Assembly (NCBI RefSeq): GCF_014696715.1
Contig: NZ_JACJQO010000013.1
Location: forward strand, 1 to 64,000
Origin: Pseudanabaena sp. FACHB-2040
GTDB taxonomy: Bacteria; Cyanobacteriota; Cyanobacteriia; Phormidesmidales; Phormidesmidaceae
Direction of reading: 5' to 3'
Length of the DNA stretch: 64,000 nt
Shown here: in pieces, positions 3,560 to 19,280 of the stretch
How positions within the stretch are numbered: the stretch's first letter is position 1
How the letters are laid out: each line of letters begins with the position of its first letter
Position numbers and translations under genes: made by a program
Notes under the pieces: model-generated
What the model saw: the letters and a program-made list of their open reading frames with translations, nothing else
The model's database searches: none
Told to the model about the DNA's origin: nothing

Positions 3560-4243
3560 ATGACCCCCCTAAAAGGGTCTCTTCTACGAGGGTGGTTTGA
3601 CCTCACCAGCCGCCAGGTGCAGGTTCTAGCCGCTGCTGTTGGCCTGGTTGTGCTTCCTGTTTTCTTCCAAGCTCCGCTGGTACGGGTCTTTCCCTGGCTG
3701 AGTCTGGCTTTGACAGGAGCCTGGTTAGGGCTGGGCCTTTGGCTAATGCAGCGTCCGCGGGGCCGAGTCTGGGGAGATCTTCTAGTGGGCTTTACTTGGA
3801 CTTGGCTAGCCGGGTCGCTCTATTGGGGCTGGCTCCGCTGGGAACCCATGGTGCATCTGCCTGTTGAAGCGCTAGCTCTGCCCATTGTTGTGCTTTGCCT
3901 GAGGCGAGGCTGGGGGCGAGTGGGTGGCTACTTTTACCTAGGCTCTCTTTTAGGAACGGCAGTAACCGATCTCTACACCAATTGGATGGGCCTGTTTCCT
4001 TCCTGGCGTCAGCTGATGGCGGTCGATCCAGAATTTGTGCCCGTGGTCTTAAGAGAAGCTGCCGGCTTGCTAGGAACCCCCGTAGCTGGGTACCGCGCGG
4101 CCTTTCTGGTCTTCTTTTTAATCAGCGCTGGCGTCATTCCTCTGCTTTACTCCAGACAACTCATCTGGTGGGCCTTTGGTGGAGCTGTGCTGAGCACGCT
4201 TCTGGTAGACGGGCTGTTTTTTCTGTCAGCGGCCTTGGCTTGA
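3560..4243 (+). CDS. DUF3120 cyanobacterial membrane protein
   Basis: 227 residues from ATG 3560; the frame is also open to a TTG at 3530. Strongly hydrophobic, with about six membrane segments: around VLAAAVGLVVLPVFF, LSLALTGAWLGLGLWL, LLVGFTWTWLAGSLYW, the YFYLGSLLGTAVTDLY region, FLVFFLISAGVIPLLY and AVLSTLLVDGLFFL. It matches the DUF3120 family, restricted to cyanobacteria and relatives and functionally uncharacterised. It stands alone on the plus strand with a symmetric candidate operator just upstream. Family recognised from pattern; function unknown. Confidence 0.75.
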   Translation: MTPLKGSLLRGWFDLTSRQVQVLAAAVGLVVLPVFFQAPLVRVFPWLSLALTGAWLGLGLWLMQRPRGRVWGDLLVGFTWTWLAGSLYWGWLRWEPMVHLPVEALALPIVVLCLRRGWGRVGGYFYLGSLLGTAVTDLYTNWMGLFPSWRQLMAVDPEFVPVVLREAAGLLGTPVAGYRAAFLVFFLISAGVIPLLYSRQLIWWAFGGAVLSTLLVDGLFFLSAALA

Positions 4244-4403
4244 GGTCGAAGGCGTTGGTAAAAGTAGGGCTGCCAACCGCATAGGATTTGCCTTTTGAGT
4301 CAGGCAAAAAACACATAGGCCATCTAAAGCTGGATTTTTGAGCTATTTTTTTAGTAGTTCCTCGCTTCTGTGGGGAGATACCCCATAGACCTCGTCCACA
4401 CAA

Positions 4404-5435
4404 TTGAGCCTCCAGCCCGTCATCGCGAGTAGTCTAGTGACTCTCAAACCCGGCCCTTACCTGGTCCTTCAAACTGAATCTGGCAGTCGCCATTTATCGT
4501 TGATCGGAAGCAACTGCTGGACTATTGGCCGCAGTGATGACAACAACTTTGTCCTTCCCGATCGCTGGATTTCGCGCAACCACGCCATGCTGCAATGCAT
4601 GGAGAACGGCGAGTTTTACCTAATTGATTTGGGCAGCCGCAATGGCTCTTTTGTCAACGGCCGTCGAGTTAGCGTGCCGGTGACGCTGCAAAACGGTGAC
4701 GCCCTGACCTTTGGGCAGACAGAGCTACAGTTTTATTGCCCTGCCCCCGAACCGGCCCTGCCAAATTCCGCCAGTATTGCCAGAGCAGATTCGCAAGACT
4801 TTACAGCCACGGCTACACTGCACATTCGTCGCCTAATTTCGGTCATGGTGGTCGACATCCGCGACTTCACCATCATGACCCGGCAGATCGACGAGAAAGT
4901 TCTCTCAGAGGCGATTGGCACCTGGTTTCGGCGGGCCGGAGAGATCATCGGTCAGTACGGCAGCTGGGTGGATAAATATATTGGCGATGCCGTCATGGCC
5001 GTTTGGATTCATGGGGCCAAAGGGGTAGACCCGGCGGAGATGGTGCAAATCATTCAGGCAATGAGTGCCCTGGCAAAGATGACTAGCACCCTGCACGAGC
5101 AATTTCCCCTACCCTTTCCCCTGCGGATTGGAGCGGGTCTCAATACCGGCTTTGCGATGGTGGGCAACGCTGGCACCGGCGATCGCCCTGACTACACAGC
5201 GCTGGGAGACACCGTCAATGCGGCCTTCCGCTTCGAAACTTCTACAAAACAGTTGGGCCTCGATATCGCTTTGGGTGAAACGACCTATCAGTACTTAGAA
5301 GGGCTAGGGGCCAGTGAACAGTTCTTCAAGCGCTACACAGTTGCCATGAAGGGCTATGAAATGCCGATCATTGCCCACGCAGGCACCTTCTCTGACCTGG
5401 ATCGATTCCTCAAGACGCACAACACGCTGGGTTGA
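4404..5435 (+). CDS. FHA domain-adenylate/guanylate cyclase fusion
   Basis: 343 residues from TTG 4404 (GTG 4437 is an alternative; no usable ATG). Residues about 20-112 are an FHA phosphothreonine-binding domain: TIGRSDDN, SRNHAML, LGSRNGSFVNG. Residues about 143-325 are a class III nucleotide cyclase domain: metal-binding D151 (VVDIRDFT) and D195 (YIGDAVMAVW), K191, and the DYTALGDTVN...R segment with N272 and R276. Thr265 at the base-recognition position suggests ATP, hence cAMP. There is no membrane segment, so it is likely a soluble enzyme recruited or controlled by protein phosphorylation. It sits monocistronically before purL. Confidence 0.9.
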   Translation: MSLQPVIASSLVTLKPGPYLVLQTESGSRHLSLIGSNCWTIGRSDDNNFVLPDRWISRNHAMLQCMENGEFYLIDLGSRNGSFVNGRRVSVPVTLQNGDALTFGQTELQFYCPAPEPALPNSASIARADSQDFTATATLHIRRLISVMVVDIRDFTIMTRQIDEKVLSEAIGTWFRRAGEIIGQYGSWVDKYIGDAVMAVWIHGAKGVDPAEMVQIIQAMSALAKMTSTLHEQFPLPFPLRIGAGLNTGFAMVGNAGTGDRPDYTALGDTVNAAFRFETSTKQLGLDIALGETTYQYLEGLGASEQFFKRYTVAMKGYEMPIIAHAGTFSDLDRFLKTHNTLG

Positions 5436-5516
5436 GTTCGCTGAGCTCCACTGAATCTCTGTCAGATCGGGTAGCTGCAGCGATAGAATTTTAGACGCAC
5501 TGCACAGGCCGACCCT

Positions 5517-7901
5517 ATGACCGCTTCTTCTGCCGCTCCGTTTTCCCCCGATGAAATCGCTTCAGAAGGCCTGAAGCCAGGGGAATACGAAGAAATTGTT
5601 CGCCGGCTGGGCCGCCACCCCAACCGGGCGGAGCTGGGTATGTTTGGCGTGATGTGGTCGGAGCACTGCTGCTACAAAAATTCTCGCCCCCTGCTCAAGC
5701 AGTTTCCTACCGAAGGCCCGCGAATTTTAGTGGGACCAGGGGAAAATGCTGGGGTCATAGATGCTGGAGAGGGCCTGCGGGTTGCCTTTAAGATCGAATC
5801 TCACAACCACCCTTCAGCAGTAGAGCCTTTTCAGGGCGCAGCCACAGGGGTTGGCGGCATTTTGCGAGACATTTTCACCATGGGCGCTAGGCCCATTGCT
5901 GCTCTAAACTCGCTGCGGTTTGGCGATTTGGGCGATGCCCGCACCCGTCGCATCTTCACCGGAGTCGTTTCGGGGATTGCCCACTACGGCAACTGCTTTG
6001 GGGTACCGACGGTAGGCGGGGAGGTGTTCTTTGACCCGGCCTACACCGGCAATCCGCTGGTTAATGCGATGGCGATTGGCCTGATGGAGACACCGGATAT
6101 CGTGAAGTCAGGGGCCTCTGGTATTGGCAACCCAGTGCTGTACGTAGGCTCTACGACTGGGCGAGACGGTATGGGCGGGGCTAGTTTTGCCAGTGCCGAG
6201 CTGAGCGATGAGTCGGAGGCTGATCGGCCTGCAGTGCAGGTAGGCGATCCCTTTCTAGAGAAGTCTTTGGTAGAAGCTTGCCTGGAAGCCTTTAAGACCG
6301 GGGCTGTGGTGGCAGCGCAGGATATGGGAGCGGCGGGTATCACCTGCTCCACGTCAGAAATGGCGGCTAAGGGTGGAGTCGGCATTGAGCTAGACCTTGA
6401 TCTGATTCCGGTGCGGGAGACTGGCATGGTGCCCTATGAATACCTGCTCTCCGAATCTCAAGAGCGCATGCTGTTTGTCGGGCAAAAAGGTCGGGAGCAG
6501 GAGCTTATTGAGATCTTTGAGCGCTGGGGGCTGCAGGCTGTGGTTGCCGGAACGGTGATCGAAGAGCCGATTGTTCGCATTCTCTTTAAAGGGGAAACTG
6601 CCGCCGAAATTCCGGCCCTGGCCCTGGCTGAAGACACGCCGATTTATCACCGCGAGCTGCTGGCTGAGCCGCCTGACTATGCCCAGCAGGCTTGGGCCTG
6701 GACAATGGATCAGCTGCCCCATTGCTCACTGTCGGGAACCTCGGTTAAGGGCACCCCTCTAACCTGGAATGAAGTGCTGCTAAAGTTGCTGGACAGCCCC
6801 ACGATTGCCTCCAAGCGCTGGGTTTACCGGCAGTACGACCATCAGGTGCAAAATAATACGGTGCTGTGGCCAGGGGGCGGTGATGCCGCTGTGATTCGGC
6901 TGCGGCCTCTTGAGGAGGAGCCAGGGGATCTGGGGAGCAAGGGAAACAGAAACCGGGGGCTAGCGGCGACCGTAGACTGCAATTCTCGCTATGTCTATCT
7001 CAATCCCTACGAGGGGGCTAAGGCAGCAGTAGCCGAAGCGGCCCGCAACCTCAGCTGTGTGGGCGCAGAGCCCCTGGCAGTTACCGACAACCTGAACTTT
7101 GGCAGCCCCGAAAAGCCGATTGGCTACTGGCAGCTAGCCGAAGCCTGTCGGGGGTTGGCCGACGCTTGCCGTGCCTTTGAGACGCCCGTAACCGGCGGTA
7201 ACGTCTCTCTCTACAACGAGACGCTAGACAGCCAAGGCAATCCGCAGCCAATTTACCCCACTCCAGTCGTGGGCATGGTGGGGCTGATTGAAGATTTGGC
7301 GGTGACCTGCGGCCAAGGTTGGCAGCAGGAAGACGACGTGATTTATCTGCTGGGCGTCAAGCTAGAAGAGGGGGAGCAGGCGGCTGTAGAGGACCGCTCC
7401 CTGGTGACGCTGGGTGGATCAGAGTATTTGGCGGCGGTACAGGGCCAGGTGACAGGGCATCCGCCAGTTGTGGATATGGATCTGGAGAAGCGAGTTCAGG
7501 CAGCCTGCCGCTACGGGATTGGTCAAGGCTGGGTGCAGTCGGCCCACGATGCAGCGGAGGGTGGAGTTGCGATCGCACTAGCCGAAGCCTGCATTAGTGG
7601 AGGACTGGGAGCCGAAATTACGCTACCAGTAGACTCGACCTACGCTGGGCGCTGGGATGCCCTGCTATTTGGCGAAGGGGGGGCGCGCATTCTAGTCTCG
7701 GTTAAGCCTGAAGCCATTGAAGCTTGGGAGCACTATCTGGAGACACACCTGCAGACGGCGTGGCAGCGATTGGGCCGGGTGCAAGCTCCAAAATCATCAC
7801 TGACCTTGAGCACACTTGATAGCAAGCCGGTTTTGGCAGCTTCTTTAAGCACAATGGCGGAAACTTGGGAAACTGCTATCGAAAGGCGGCTGACGGCCTA
7901 G
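5517..7901 (+). CDS. purL: Phosphoribosylformylglycinamidine synthase subunit PurL
   Basis: 794 residues from ATG 5517. It is the ATP-dependent synthetase subunit for step 4 of purine biosynthesis (FGAR + glutamine to FGAM). The length fits the small PurL type, which works with PurS and PurQ; neither is in this window. Visible motifs include the N-terminal [17 protein letters not shown], the active-site region [22 protein letters not shown], and [15 protein letters not shown] in the repeated AIRS-like halves (second copy [16 protein letters not shown]). purF follows after about 250 bases in the same direction, an arrangement common in cyanobacteria. Confidence 0.97.
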
Positions 7902-16502: not shown

Positions 16503-17684
16503 ATGAAAGTAATTGTTAAGAGCGATACCTGGTTTAAGCTTAGCCCCAAGTCCTCAAACGAACTGACCGACCTAGAAAAAGTCATTGTCAAGCGAGGAAC
16601 AGAGCTAGAAGTCCAGTTTTACGTAGAAGTTGGGGCCGATCATCTAAAGATCAAACTGGCCAATGCAACCCTGGACAGCCAGCAGACTAAAGACTGGTTT
16701 GTCTTTAAGCCAGATATCGAAGTCAAAGGCTCAGGGGTAGAACTCACTGTGGTCAGCGACACCCTCTTCAAGCTCAAACCTGTTAACTCCCGCGAACTGT
16801 CTGATGCTGAGAAAGTTTTTGTCAAACGAGGCACCCAGTTTGAGCTGTCTTCGTATCTGCCAGCTGAAGGTAATCACACTCGGGTAGCGCTGTCCAATCA
16901 ATTTTTGGGACCCAACAATCGCAACACCTGGTATGTCTATAGCCCGGACATGAAAGTTACCGGAGACAAGGTTGACTTGAAGGTGGTCAGCGACACTCTG
17001 TTTAAAGCTAGGCCAGAACTGTCTAGTCAGCTTACAGCAGACGAAAAAGCCTTTGTTAAAACCGGCAGTGTCTTTGAGCTGCAATCTCACGCGCCTGCCC
17101 CTAATAACCACGTTAAGGTCGCCTTAGACGGGGCATTTTTAGGGTCAAATAACCTAACTACCTGGTATGCCTATACTTCAGATATCACCGTTGAGGGCAA
17201 TGAGCCCCTGAACAAGCCCAAAGACAATCAGCCTGCCAATCCGAAAGATCCAGGTAGAGCCATTCGCCTGCCAGGCTTCACCGGTCTCTACTATCTAAAC
17301 AATTCAATTGTGCCAGGCGGTAGCTTTACCTGGGGAGAAGCTACCCACGCAGGCACCCGTATTCCTGTGGACCAGTCGATAGTCTACGGCATGATTCGCG
17401 TGGCTCAACACATGGAAGAAATTCGGAAAATGTTTGGCAACCGACCTATCTCCATCAACTCCTGGTATCGCGATCCGGTAACCAACCGACGAGTAGGAGG
17501 AGCCCGGTTTTCCCGCCATCTTAATGGAGACGCTATTGACTTCAATATTCAGGGGTATCATCCCTCTAGCGTCTACGCCAAGCTAAATGGTTGGTGGGGA
17601 ACCCGAGGTGGGTTGGCCAGCTCTTCTGTATTTACCCACATTGACGTCCGAGGCTATCGTGCTCGCTGGTCCTATGGATACTAA
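16503..17684 (+). CDS. Leaderless M15-type peptidase with three N-terminal repeat modules (copy 1)
   Basis: 393 residues from ATG 16503. Three ~75-residue modules (about 1-76, 80-154, 158-232) share the pattern VVSDTLFKxxP...EKxFVKxGTxFEL...NHxxVAL...NTWYxYxPDI. A short proline/asparagine linker follows, then a Peptidase_M15_3-like domain (about 255-393). The zinc set is visible as SRHLNGDAIDF (H339, D346) and THIDVRGYRARW (H379). M15 enzymes cleave D-Ala-D-Ala or cross-bridges in peptidoglycan. No signal peptide or membrane segment is seen, odd for a wall enzyme. The repeat module is not one I can name; it may bind wall or polysaccharide. It is a tandem paralogue of the next gene. Confidence 0.82.
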   Translation: MKVIVKSDTWFKLSPKSSNELTDLEKVIVKRGTELEVQFYVEVGADHLKIKLANATLDSQQTKDWFVFKPDIEVKGSGVELTVVSDTLFKLKPVNSRELSDAEKVFVKRGTQFELSSYLPAEGNHTRVALSNQFLGPNNRNTWYVYSPDMKVTGDKVDLKVVSDTLFKARPELSSQLTADEKAFVKTGSVFELQSHAPAPNNHVKVALDGAFLGSNNLTTWYAYTSDITVEGNEPLNKPKDNQPANPKDPGRAIRLPGFTGLYYLNNSIVPGGSFTWGEATHAGTRIPVDQSIVYGMIRVAQHMEEIRKMFGNRPISINSWYRDPVTNRRVGGARFSRHLNGDAIDFNIQGYHPSSVYAKLNGWWGTRGGLASSSVFTHIDVRGYRARWSYGY

Positions 17685-17728
17685 AAGCTAGAGCAGTCCT
17701 ACGATGATTTGTTCTAAGAGTGTGAGCC

Positions 17729-18988
17729 ATGAAAATCAAGGCTAAGAGCGACACCTTGTTCAAACTCAAGCCCAAGCTGTCGAATGAGCTTTCTGCTACT
17801 GAGAAAGTATTCGTCAAAAATGGAACAGAGTTTGAGATTGAGTACTATGTTGATGTGGGCAGCAACCATTGGCAGATCGAACTTTTGGAGTCTGCCGTAG
17901 GCGACTCCAAGATAACGTCTTGGTATATTTTTCGGCCCGATTTTGAGCTAAAAACTCCAATTACGCTTAAAGTCGTTAGCGACACGCTCTTCAAGCTGGA
18001 GCCTAAACTATCGAGCGAACTCACAGATATCCAAAAAATCTTCGTCAAAAATGGGACTCAGTTTGAAGTCGCTTCTTATCTGCCTGCCGCCAGCAACCAC
18101 ACCCGGCTCGCTCTAGCCAATGCCACACTAGGCCCCAATAGGCTCAATAGCTGGTACGCCTATACCCCTGACATTAAGCTTCAGGGCGATCGCCAGGAGC
18201 TGAAGGTGGTCAGCGATACGCTGTTCAAAGCCGAACCAACGCTTTCGAGTGAACTGTCAGCCGCCGACAAGATCTTTGTTAAAAACGGAACAGTTTTTGA
18301 GCTCAGTTCCTACGGCGCAATCGAGAAAAACCACGTTAGAGTCGCGCTGCAAGGTGCTTTTCTCGGGCCTGGCAACCGCAACACCTGGTATGCCTACGCC
18401 CCAGATATTCAAATCAGCGGCAACATTCCTGGAAACAGACCGAACGATCAAAATTCTGCCGGGAGTGGGAGTAGCTCTCAACCTGCAAACCCTGTCAACC
18501 CTACAAACCCTGTTAACCCTGCCAATCCCGTTAACCTCGGTAAGGCTATGCGGTTTCCTGGCTTTGATGGGCTCTACTACACCAATAACCCCATCATTTG
18601 GACAACAGCTTACGGGGAGCGAGGGCACTTTACCTGGGGAGAAGCAACCCATGGAGGTACTCGCATCCCTGAAAACCAGGATGTAGTGTATGGCATGATT
18701 CGAGTAGCTAAAGCTCTGGAAGATATCCGCTACAGATTTGGTGGACGCCCCATGAGTATCAACTCCTGGTACCGACCCCCTGCTGTGAACGCGGCTGTAG
18801 GGGGCGCTAGTCAGTCTCGTCATTTAGCAGGAGATGCCGCAGACTTTGTCATCTCTGGATACCACCCCTACGATGTGTTCGACAAGCTAGACGCTTGGTG
18901 GGGCAACAAAGGTGGGCTAGCCAGCGCCTCAGTTTTTACTCATATTGATACACGGGGCTACCGTGCTCGCTGGTCCTACGGCTACTAA
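17729..18988 (+). CDS. Leaderless M15-type peptidase with three N-terminal repeat modules (copy 2)
   Basis: 419 residues from ATG 17729, 44 bases after copy 1, same architecture. Modules are at about 1-75, 79-153 and 157-231. An Asn-Pro-Val linker (NPVNPTNPVNPANPVN, about residues 255-270) precedes the M15_3-like domain (about 275-419). Zinc residues are SRHLAGDAADF (H365, D372) and THIDTRGYRARW (H405). The two proteins end in the same RGYRARWSYGY. The longer linker and an extra TTAYGERG loop distinguish it from copy 1. Again no signal peptide. It arose by tandem duplication; both copies look intact and therefore selected. Confidence 0.82.
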   Translation: MKIKAKSDTLFKLKPKLSNELSATEKVFVKNGTEFEIEYYVDVGSNHWQIELLESAVGDSKITSWYIFRPDFELKTPITLKVVSDTLFKLEPKLSSELTDIQKIFVKNGTQFEVASYLPAASNHTRLALANATLGPNRLNSWYAYTPDIKLQGDRQELKVVSDTLFKAEPTLSSELSAADKIFVKNGTVFELSSYGAIEKNHVRVALQGAFLGPGNRNTWYAYAPDIQISGNIPGNRPNDQNSAGSGSSSQPANPVNPTNPVNPANPVNLGKAMRFPGFDGLYYTNNPIIWTTAYGERGHFTWGEATHGGTRIPENQDVVYGMIRVAKALEDIRYRFGGRPMSINSWYRPPAVNAAVGGASQSRHLAGDAADFVISGYHPYDVFDKLDAWWGNKGGLASASVFTHIDTRGYRARWSYGY

Positions 18989-19057: not shown

Positions 19058-19081
19058 AGGTAGGCGCGTGAGACGCGATAT

Positions 19082-19155
19082 CGGGGCGTAGCGCAGCTTG
19101 GTAGCGCACTACTTTGGGGTAGTAGGGGTCGCAGGTTCAAATCCTGTCGCTCCGA
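19082..19155 (+). tRNA. tRNA-Pro (GGG)
   Basis: 74 nt cloverleaf. Acceptor CGGGGCG pairs with CGCTCCG, with one G-T wobble. The D stem is GCGC/GCGC and the anticodon stem is CTACT/AGTAG around the loop TTGGGGT, giving anticodon GGG. The T arm is GCAGG-TTCAAAT-CCTGT. The CCA end is not encoded. No intron. Confidence 0.93.
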
Positions 19156-19280
19156 TAGCTAAAACCCAGCCATATGGCTGGGTTTCATGCTTTTAAAGGA
19201 GCCATTATTTTTGGGCCGGTACCCAGCGGTCATCGACACAAAACGATGTTTTCCCGTCTACCAGCGGCCAGGTTCGGTGA

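Follow-up and report, generated by a model that had tools for sequence, protein, structure and literature searches.

Leaderless, endolysin-like M15_3 peptidases with predicted SH3-like modules at a conserved chromosomal locus of Pseudanabaena sp. FACHB-2040

Phage endolysins of the M15_3/DUF882 type (phrog_894), as in Vectrevirus K1-5 and Microcystis phage LMM01, are leaderless enzymes whose M15_3 domain is 35–47% identical to that of P1 and P2, two adjacent genes in the window studied here (the whole 64,000-nucleotide stretch of DNA that was analysed). However, the match covers only the catalytic part: P1 and P2 add three modules of predicted SH3-like fold each, and their chromosomal locus is conserved and has no adjoining holin. 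Tandem SH3-type barrels joined to a wall hydrolase, as predicted for P1 and P2, are found with the SH3b domains of the phiSM101 endolysin (4krt), CBDP35 and SlpA, from which the module differs in having no sequence similarity and no SH3_3 profile match. The Zn DD-peptidase of Streptomyces albus G (1lbu), a secreted enzyme, shares two zinc ligands with P1 and P2 and is their best structural match, although its peptidoglycan-binding domain has another fold. MepK, a periplasmic L,D-endopeptidase (NF053624), belongs to the same M15 sub-branch, but the match is weak (1.5e-5), its 25 bits lying below the equivalog cut-off of 185. Finally, the endopeptidase/holin pair of the Planktothrix phage PaV-LD provides a lysis enzyme that also lacks a signal peptide and adjoins a holin; in contrast to P1 and P2 it has an M23 domain, and an SH3-like module was not reported (PMC9096620). 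Set against these systems, P1 and P2 are rather probably chromosomal endolysin-type peptidoglycan endopeptidases, which would stay in the cytoplasm until the membrane opens, be held on the wall and act with partners such as the GH24 lysozyme P0003.

Anatomy and history of the gene pair

P1 and P2 have the same layout, with three ~77-residue modules followed by a Pro/Asn-rich linker and a Peptidase_M15_3 domain (Table 1). A first-pass annotation had placed both open reading frames correctly and had counted three modules per protein, six in total, all of which match the module profile at values well outside chance (5e-27 to 2e-35). It had also described both proteins as lacking a signal peptide, leaving room for a real upstream start that would add one. 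In-frame stops lie close upstream of both genes, with no in-frame start before them, so that a signal peptide hidden upstream is excluded and the idea of an upstream start was dropped. As no hydrophobic stretch was found at either N-terminus, neither protein has a Sec/Tat signal peptide. The full P2 AlphaFold model has a pLDDT of 88.

Table 1. Features of the P1/P2 locus and of P0003, in window coordinates
Feature	Position	Strand	Description
Two conserved genes upstream of P1	15607..16333	+	mark syntenic locus
P1 upstream in-frame stop	16488		TAG, 15 nt before start
P1 (P0001)	16503..17684	+	393 aa, leaderless, 3 x SH3-like module + M15_3 endopeptidase (predicted)
P1 module 1	16506..16730	+	aa 2-76; module profile 5e-27
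P1 module 2	16740..16964	+	aa 80-154; module profile 2e-35
P1 module 3	16974..17198	+	aa 158-232; module profile 1e-32
P1 Peptidase_M15_3	17391..17645	+	PF08291 5.5e-18
P1 zinc set	17517-17519, 17538-17540, 17637-17639		H339, D346, H379
P2 upstream in-frame stop	17723		TGA, 6 nt before start
P2 (P0002)	17729..18988	+	419 aa, leaderless, 3 x SH3-like module + M15_3 endopeptidase (predicted)
P2 module 1	17732..17956	+	aa 2-76; module profile 1e-27
P2 module 2	17963..18187	+	aa 79-153; module profile 6e-33
P2 module 3	18197..18421	+	aa 157-231; module profile 1e-33; modelled alone, pLDDT 93.4
P2 Pro/Asn linker	18428..18526	+	aa 234-266; disordered, AlphaFold pLDDT <50
P2 Peptidase_M15_3	18644..18949	+	PF08291 8.1e-17
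P2 zinc set	18821-18823, 18842-18844, 18941-18943		H365, D372, H405
tRNA-Pro(ggg)	19081..19156	+	conserved downstream neighbour
P0003	23313..24044	+	leaderless GH24 lysozyme, N-terminal GTWxKETD domain; PF00959 6e-51

The catalytic domains score 65.5 and 61.8 bits against PF08291, with a curated cut-off of 23.2, and contain the H-x6-D ... H zinc-ligand pattern of Peptidase_M15_3. H339 and D346 of P1 and H365 and D372 of P2 line up with His154 and Asp161 of 1lbu; the alignment stops before the third ligand, and we take H379 and H405 to be equivalent to His197 of 1lbu. Among 33 homologues, H365 and H405 are invariant and D372 is conserved in at least 90%. The intact H-D-H zinc M15_3 domain proposed earlier is thus upheld by the profile matches, the 1lbu alignment and conservation. 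In PHROGs, the M15 domain falls with endolysins (phrog_894, 2e-24 for P2). The four M15_3 proteins found in the genome itself all start without a leader.

Both copies had been called fresh-looking, which is wrong: protein identity between P1 and P2 is 58% and that of the alignable DNA about 67%, and they stand in different clades of the tree, the B copy belonging to one of 31 rows (100/100 support). On identity level and tree, a recent tandem duplication was rejected. Because the modules of P1 and P2 pair position by position across the two proteins (48% identity for 1-1, 64% for 2-2 and 62% for 3-3), the triplication predates the gene duplication.

A module family of predicted SH3-like fold

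Invariant in all six modules are S7, D8, T9, F11, K12, P15, S18, L21, K26, V29, K30, G32, E36, H47, L52, W65 and D71, and T9, K12, L21, H47 and W65 form the conserved core of the module family as such. By sequence, the module matched no family in Pfam, NCBIfam, PHROGs or the PDB; no Pfam model was consistent among 70 modules, profile-profile comparison with the SH3_3 domains of the same genome gave no match, and a literature search found no paper on this module. Its earlier description as unnamed therefore stands, with no curated family in Pfam, NCBIfam or PHROGs. A structure model of the module built from the 70-sequence alignment (AlphaFold, pLDDT 93.4) has its strands ordered as in the five-stranded barrel of SH3 domains. 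With this single module, Foldseek against the PDB returned SH3 domains, the SlpA teichoic-acid-binding domain and an NlpC/P60 SH3b protein at a probability of 0.98, but with weak E-values (best 0.06), which taken singly lack significance, and a TM score of about 0.5. The full protein matched 1lbu best, and its top matches also include the phiSM101 endolysin and the binding domain of a listerial phage lysin, CBDP35. The best viral structure match was a protein of Synechococcus phage S-CBWM1 annotated as peptidoglycan-binding (TM 0.78, E 2e-4). In predicted fold the module thus resembles SH3 domains, but its sequence sets it apart as a new cyanobacterial SH3-like family that probably binds the wall. 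The first-pass annotation had allowed that the modules might belong to a well-described binding domain; this holds for the predicted fold, which is that of lysin wall-binding domains, and fails for the sequence, which neither Pfam models nor the SH3_3 profile of the same genome recognise.

Of 291 cyanobacterial genomes, 175 have modules (83 of 131 genera), among them almost all that were sampled from the family of the window itself, whereas the smallest among the genomes listed (under about 2.5 Mb) had none. None was seen outside cyanobacteria and viral contigs, other phyla not having been searched systematically. The module's partner domains are GH24 lysozyme, PF11860 N-acetylmuramidase, C39_2, GH46, M23, M15_3 and PG_binding_1. 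Of 149 module proteins whose start was visible, 146 lack a hydrophobic N-terminus, the exceptions being a multi-TM protein, one protein with a non-signal hydrophobic start and a phage fusion (L167). These counts bear on a reading in which P1 and P2 leave healthy cells by non-classical export and remodel the wall during septum opening, hormogonium release or motility. Although the fixed locus kept in filamentous genera suggests a regular function, we consider such export quite unlikely, as there is neither a route nor a signal, and unrelated module proteins and phage homologues are equally leaderless, which fits lysis better.

Some modules reside on predicted inner-membrane proteins. In a 237-aa protein of the same genome (contig C17, L007, 5595-6308), one module is followed by two hydrophobic segments and a C-terminus that is basic and probably cytoplasmic; the gene converges on that of a leaderless M15 protein with three modules (4230-5534). 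A second protein (L035, 559-2316), a possible defence or death effector, joins a DUF4231/SLATT 2TM region to a module and a C39_2 peptidase, and a module+GH24 gene follows it. A third (L045, 2455-5673) combines multiple TM segments, a TPR-like region, a module, an M23-like domain and PG_binding_1 in a predicted topology that puts the wall domains on the cytoplasmic side. In all three the module would lie on the cytoplasmic side of the membrane, an orientation that pure wall binding fails to explain. Their predicted orientation, and the fact that C39_2 is not in every case a wall enzyme, favour a cytoplasmic role, with an intracellular ligand for the module and peptidases that work within the cell, for instance in defence against phages or in the recycling of wall fragments. 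However, the topologies come from hydropathy and the positive-inside rule only, the partner domains are mostly wall hydrolases and the phage homologues resemble lysis enzymes; we therefore hold this role to be very unlikely. Leaderless module+C39_2 peptidases also occur on cyanobacterial plasmids (L009 7413-8828, L010 7418-8825, L011 5725-6759), where they adjoin RND efflux and copper/metal genes.

Phage relatives and GH24 partners

In a scan of IMG/VR, many viral contigs (L144-L150, L152, L153, L155-L157, L162 and L164) turned out to encode leaderless module+M15 proteins about 250 aa long. Phage contig L143 encodes three modules with M15 at 38% identity, and viral L167 a hydrophobic N-terminal region with a module and M15. 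The terminase large subunit is also encoded by nine module-bearing viral records, and neighbours in such records, judged by eye, include tape measure, baseplate, portal, tail and head genes. Two isolated cyanophages, S-CBWM1 and Microcoleus phage My-WqHQDG, have the module joined to C39_2; in My-WqHQDG, a holin-like ORF of 106 aa with two hydrophobic stretches, a charged tail and no PHROG match overlaps the module+C39_2 gene by stop/start. The six window modules alone gave no match in the scan of viral sequences, and a more diverse module alignment contained no segment of sufficient conservation for such a scan. Module-only tblastn against the phage collection was likewise empty at E up to 1, the modules of phages having diverged too far; they were recovered there with a query of module+C39_2. 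C39_2 peptidase homologues were present in 87 cyanophage records, some of them annotated as endolysin, and C39_2 is probably a widespread cyanophage lysis enzyme.

As phages carry leaderless module+M15 and module+C39 proteins, proteins of this architecture normally lack a leader. For leaderless wall peptidases the earlier annotation had listed lysis-linked release among the possible routes, rightly so, but it had missed the phage-endolysin architecture, which explains the absent leader without exotic export. In a tree of the M15 domain, which is poorly resolved, host and phage rows are mixed (10 label changes, 41 open forks), so that exchange between host and phage must have happened.

The lysozyme P0003, also in the window, connects to the M15 genes through its N-terminal domain (GTWxKETDxAxYLM), which has no Pfam match. 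In related genomes, the same GTWxKETD domain precedes three SH3-like modules in 25 M15 homologues, and the sister clade of M15 genes is where the protein gained it. A P0003-like GH24 lysozyme follows the M15 gene within 31 nt or overlaps it at six loci and is fused to the M15 homologue at three. These pairs and fusions couple an endopeptidase with a muramidase and link P1 and P2 to P0003. No holin was seen beside the host M15-GH24 cassettes, which are present in strains of Nodosilinea. Two single proteins, of 893 aa (L098, 9740-12421) and 981 aa (L093, 9755-12700), each contain the GTWxKETD domain, five SH3-like modules, M15 and GH24 and are, as read from their sequences, natural bifunctional lysins.

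A conserved host locus and a possible role in lysis

The two genes upstream of P1, which we take to be DUF3134 and DUF1818, precede the M15 gene in the same order at 20 of 80 loci. This arrangement recurs in Leptolyngbya, Phormidesmis, Leptothoe, Adonisia and others, with the same order in the window. Downstream, tRNA-Pro(ggg) was present at 13 of the 16 homologous loci checked, and the window's copy could mark an old integration site. That tRNA genes are common attachment sites, and that phage endolysins are among the closest designs, would suit a recent prophage remnant, with P1 and P2 as the endolysin genes of a decayed prophage beside tRNA-Pro. However, the flanks have no phage genes, and about 20 genomes from several genera keep an intact, syntenic copy of the gene; a prophage origin of the window copy was rejected on these grounds, and we regard a recent remnant as highly improbable. 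Being intact and syntenic across genera, the M15 gene is an old host gene, even if it was once acquired from a phage. The locus is accordingly a conserved host locus, neither phage genome nor prophage, and P1 and P2 are endolysin-like without being phage endolysins.

Near 16-19.5 kb of the window no holin or other release ORF was noted. LrgA was not found in the genome and was rejected as a release route. For endolysin-type P1 and P2, we infer wall binding, bond cleavage, cytoplasmic storage, release on membrane breach and a role in regulated lysis. The zinc M15_3 domain would cleave peptide bonds of the wall while the three SH3-like modules anchor the enzyme there and the Pro/Asn linker gives the catalytic domain its reach. 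Lacking a signal peptide, both enzymes would be harmless in the cytoplasm, where the membrane separates them from their substrate. Once the membrane opens, in regulated or stress-induced cell death, in filament breakage of the necridium type or under phage attack, they would act, with leaderless P0003 and similar enzymes working alongside. Their build, which is that of viral lysis enzymes, and their conserved place in related species make P1 and P2 good candidates for tools that dismantle the wall in dying cells, and domains of this type could serve practically as lysins against cyanobacteria.

Ghost cells of Anabaena under UV or salt stress were always without peptidoglycan (n=88; PMC8894136), and in filamentous strains hormogonia are released at dead necridia (PMC9415839); the passages on ghost cells and necridia in these two papers name no wall enzymes. 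We offer as a proposal that P1 and P2 may act in such cells. More tentatively, and with considerable doubt, multicellular cyanobacteria in general might keep chromosomal, holin-independent endolysin-like hydrolases (M15_3, GH24, N-acetylmuramidase, C39_2) that share a phage-exchanged family of SH3-like wall-binding modules and strip the wall as executioners in ghost cells and necridia.

Leaderless lysins can act from outside, and contig C43 of the genome (L234) carries an eCIS-like cluster with sheath, tube, AAA ATPase, LysM-type baseplate and a possible DUF4157-type ORF, all judged by eye. Both points would fit a weapon, freed by lysing sister cells or delivered by the CIS, that hits the walls of competitors. 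Nonetheless, we consider a weapon unlikely: the neighbours of P1 and P2 are conserved genes, with no immunity-type gene among them and no linked delivery gene (CIS effector or bacteriocin) beside the pair; the CIS-like cluster is on a different contig; and the close phage relatives target the phage's own host, not third parties. On contigs C4 and C42 (L232, L233), the same genome also has clusters of tail genes, of phage or prophage type, that encode tail sheath proteins.
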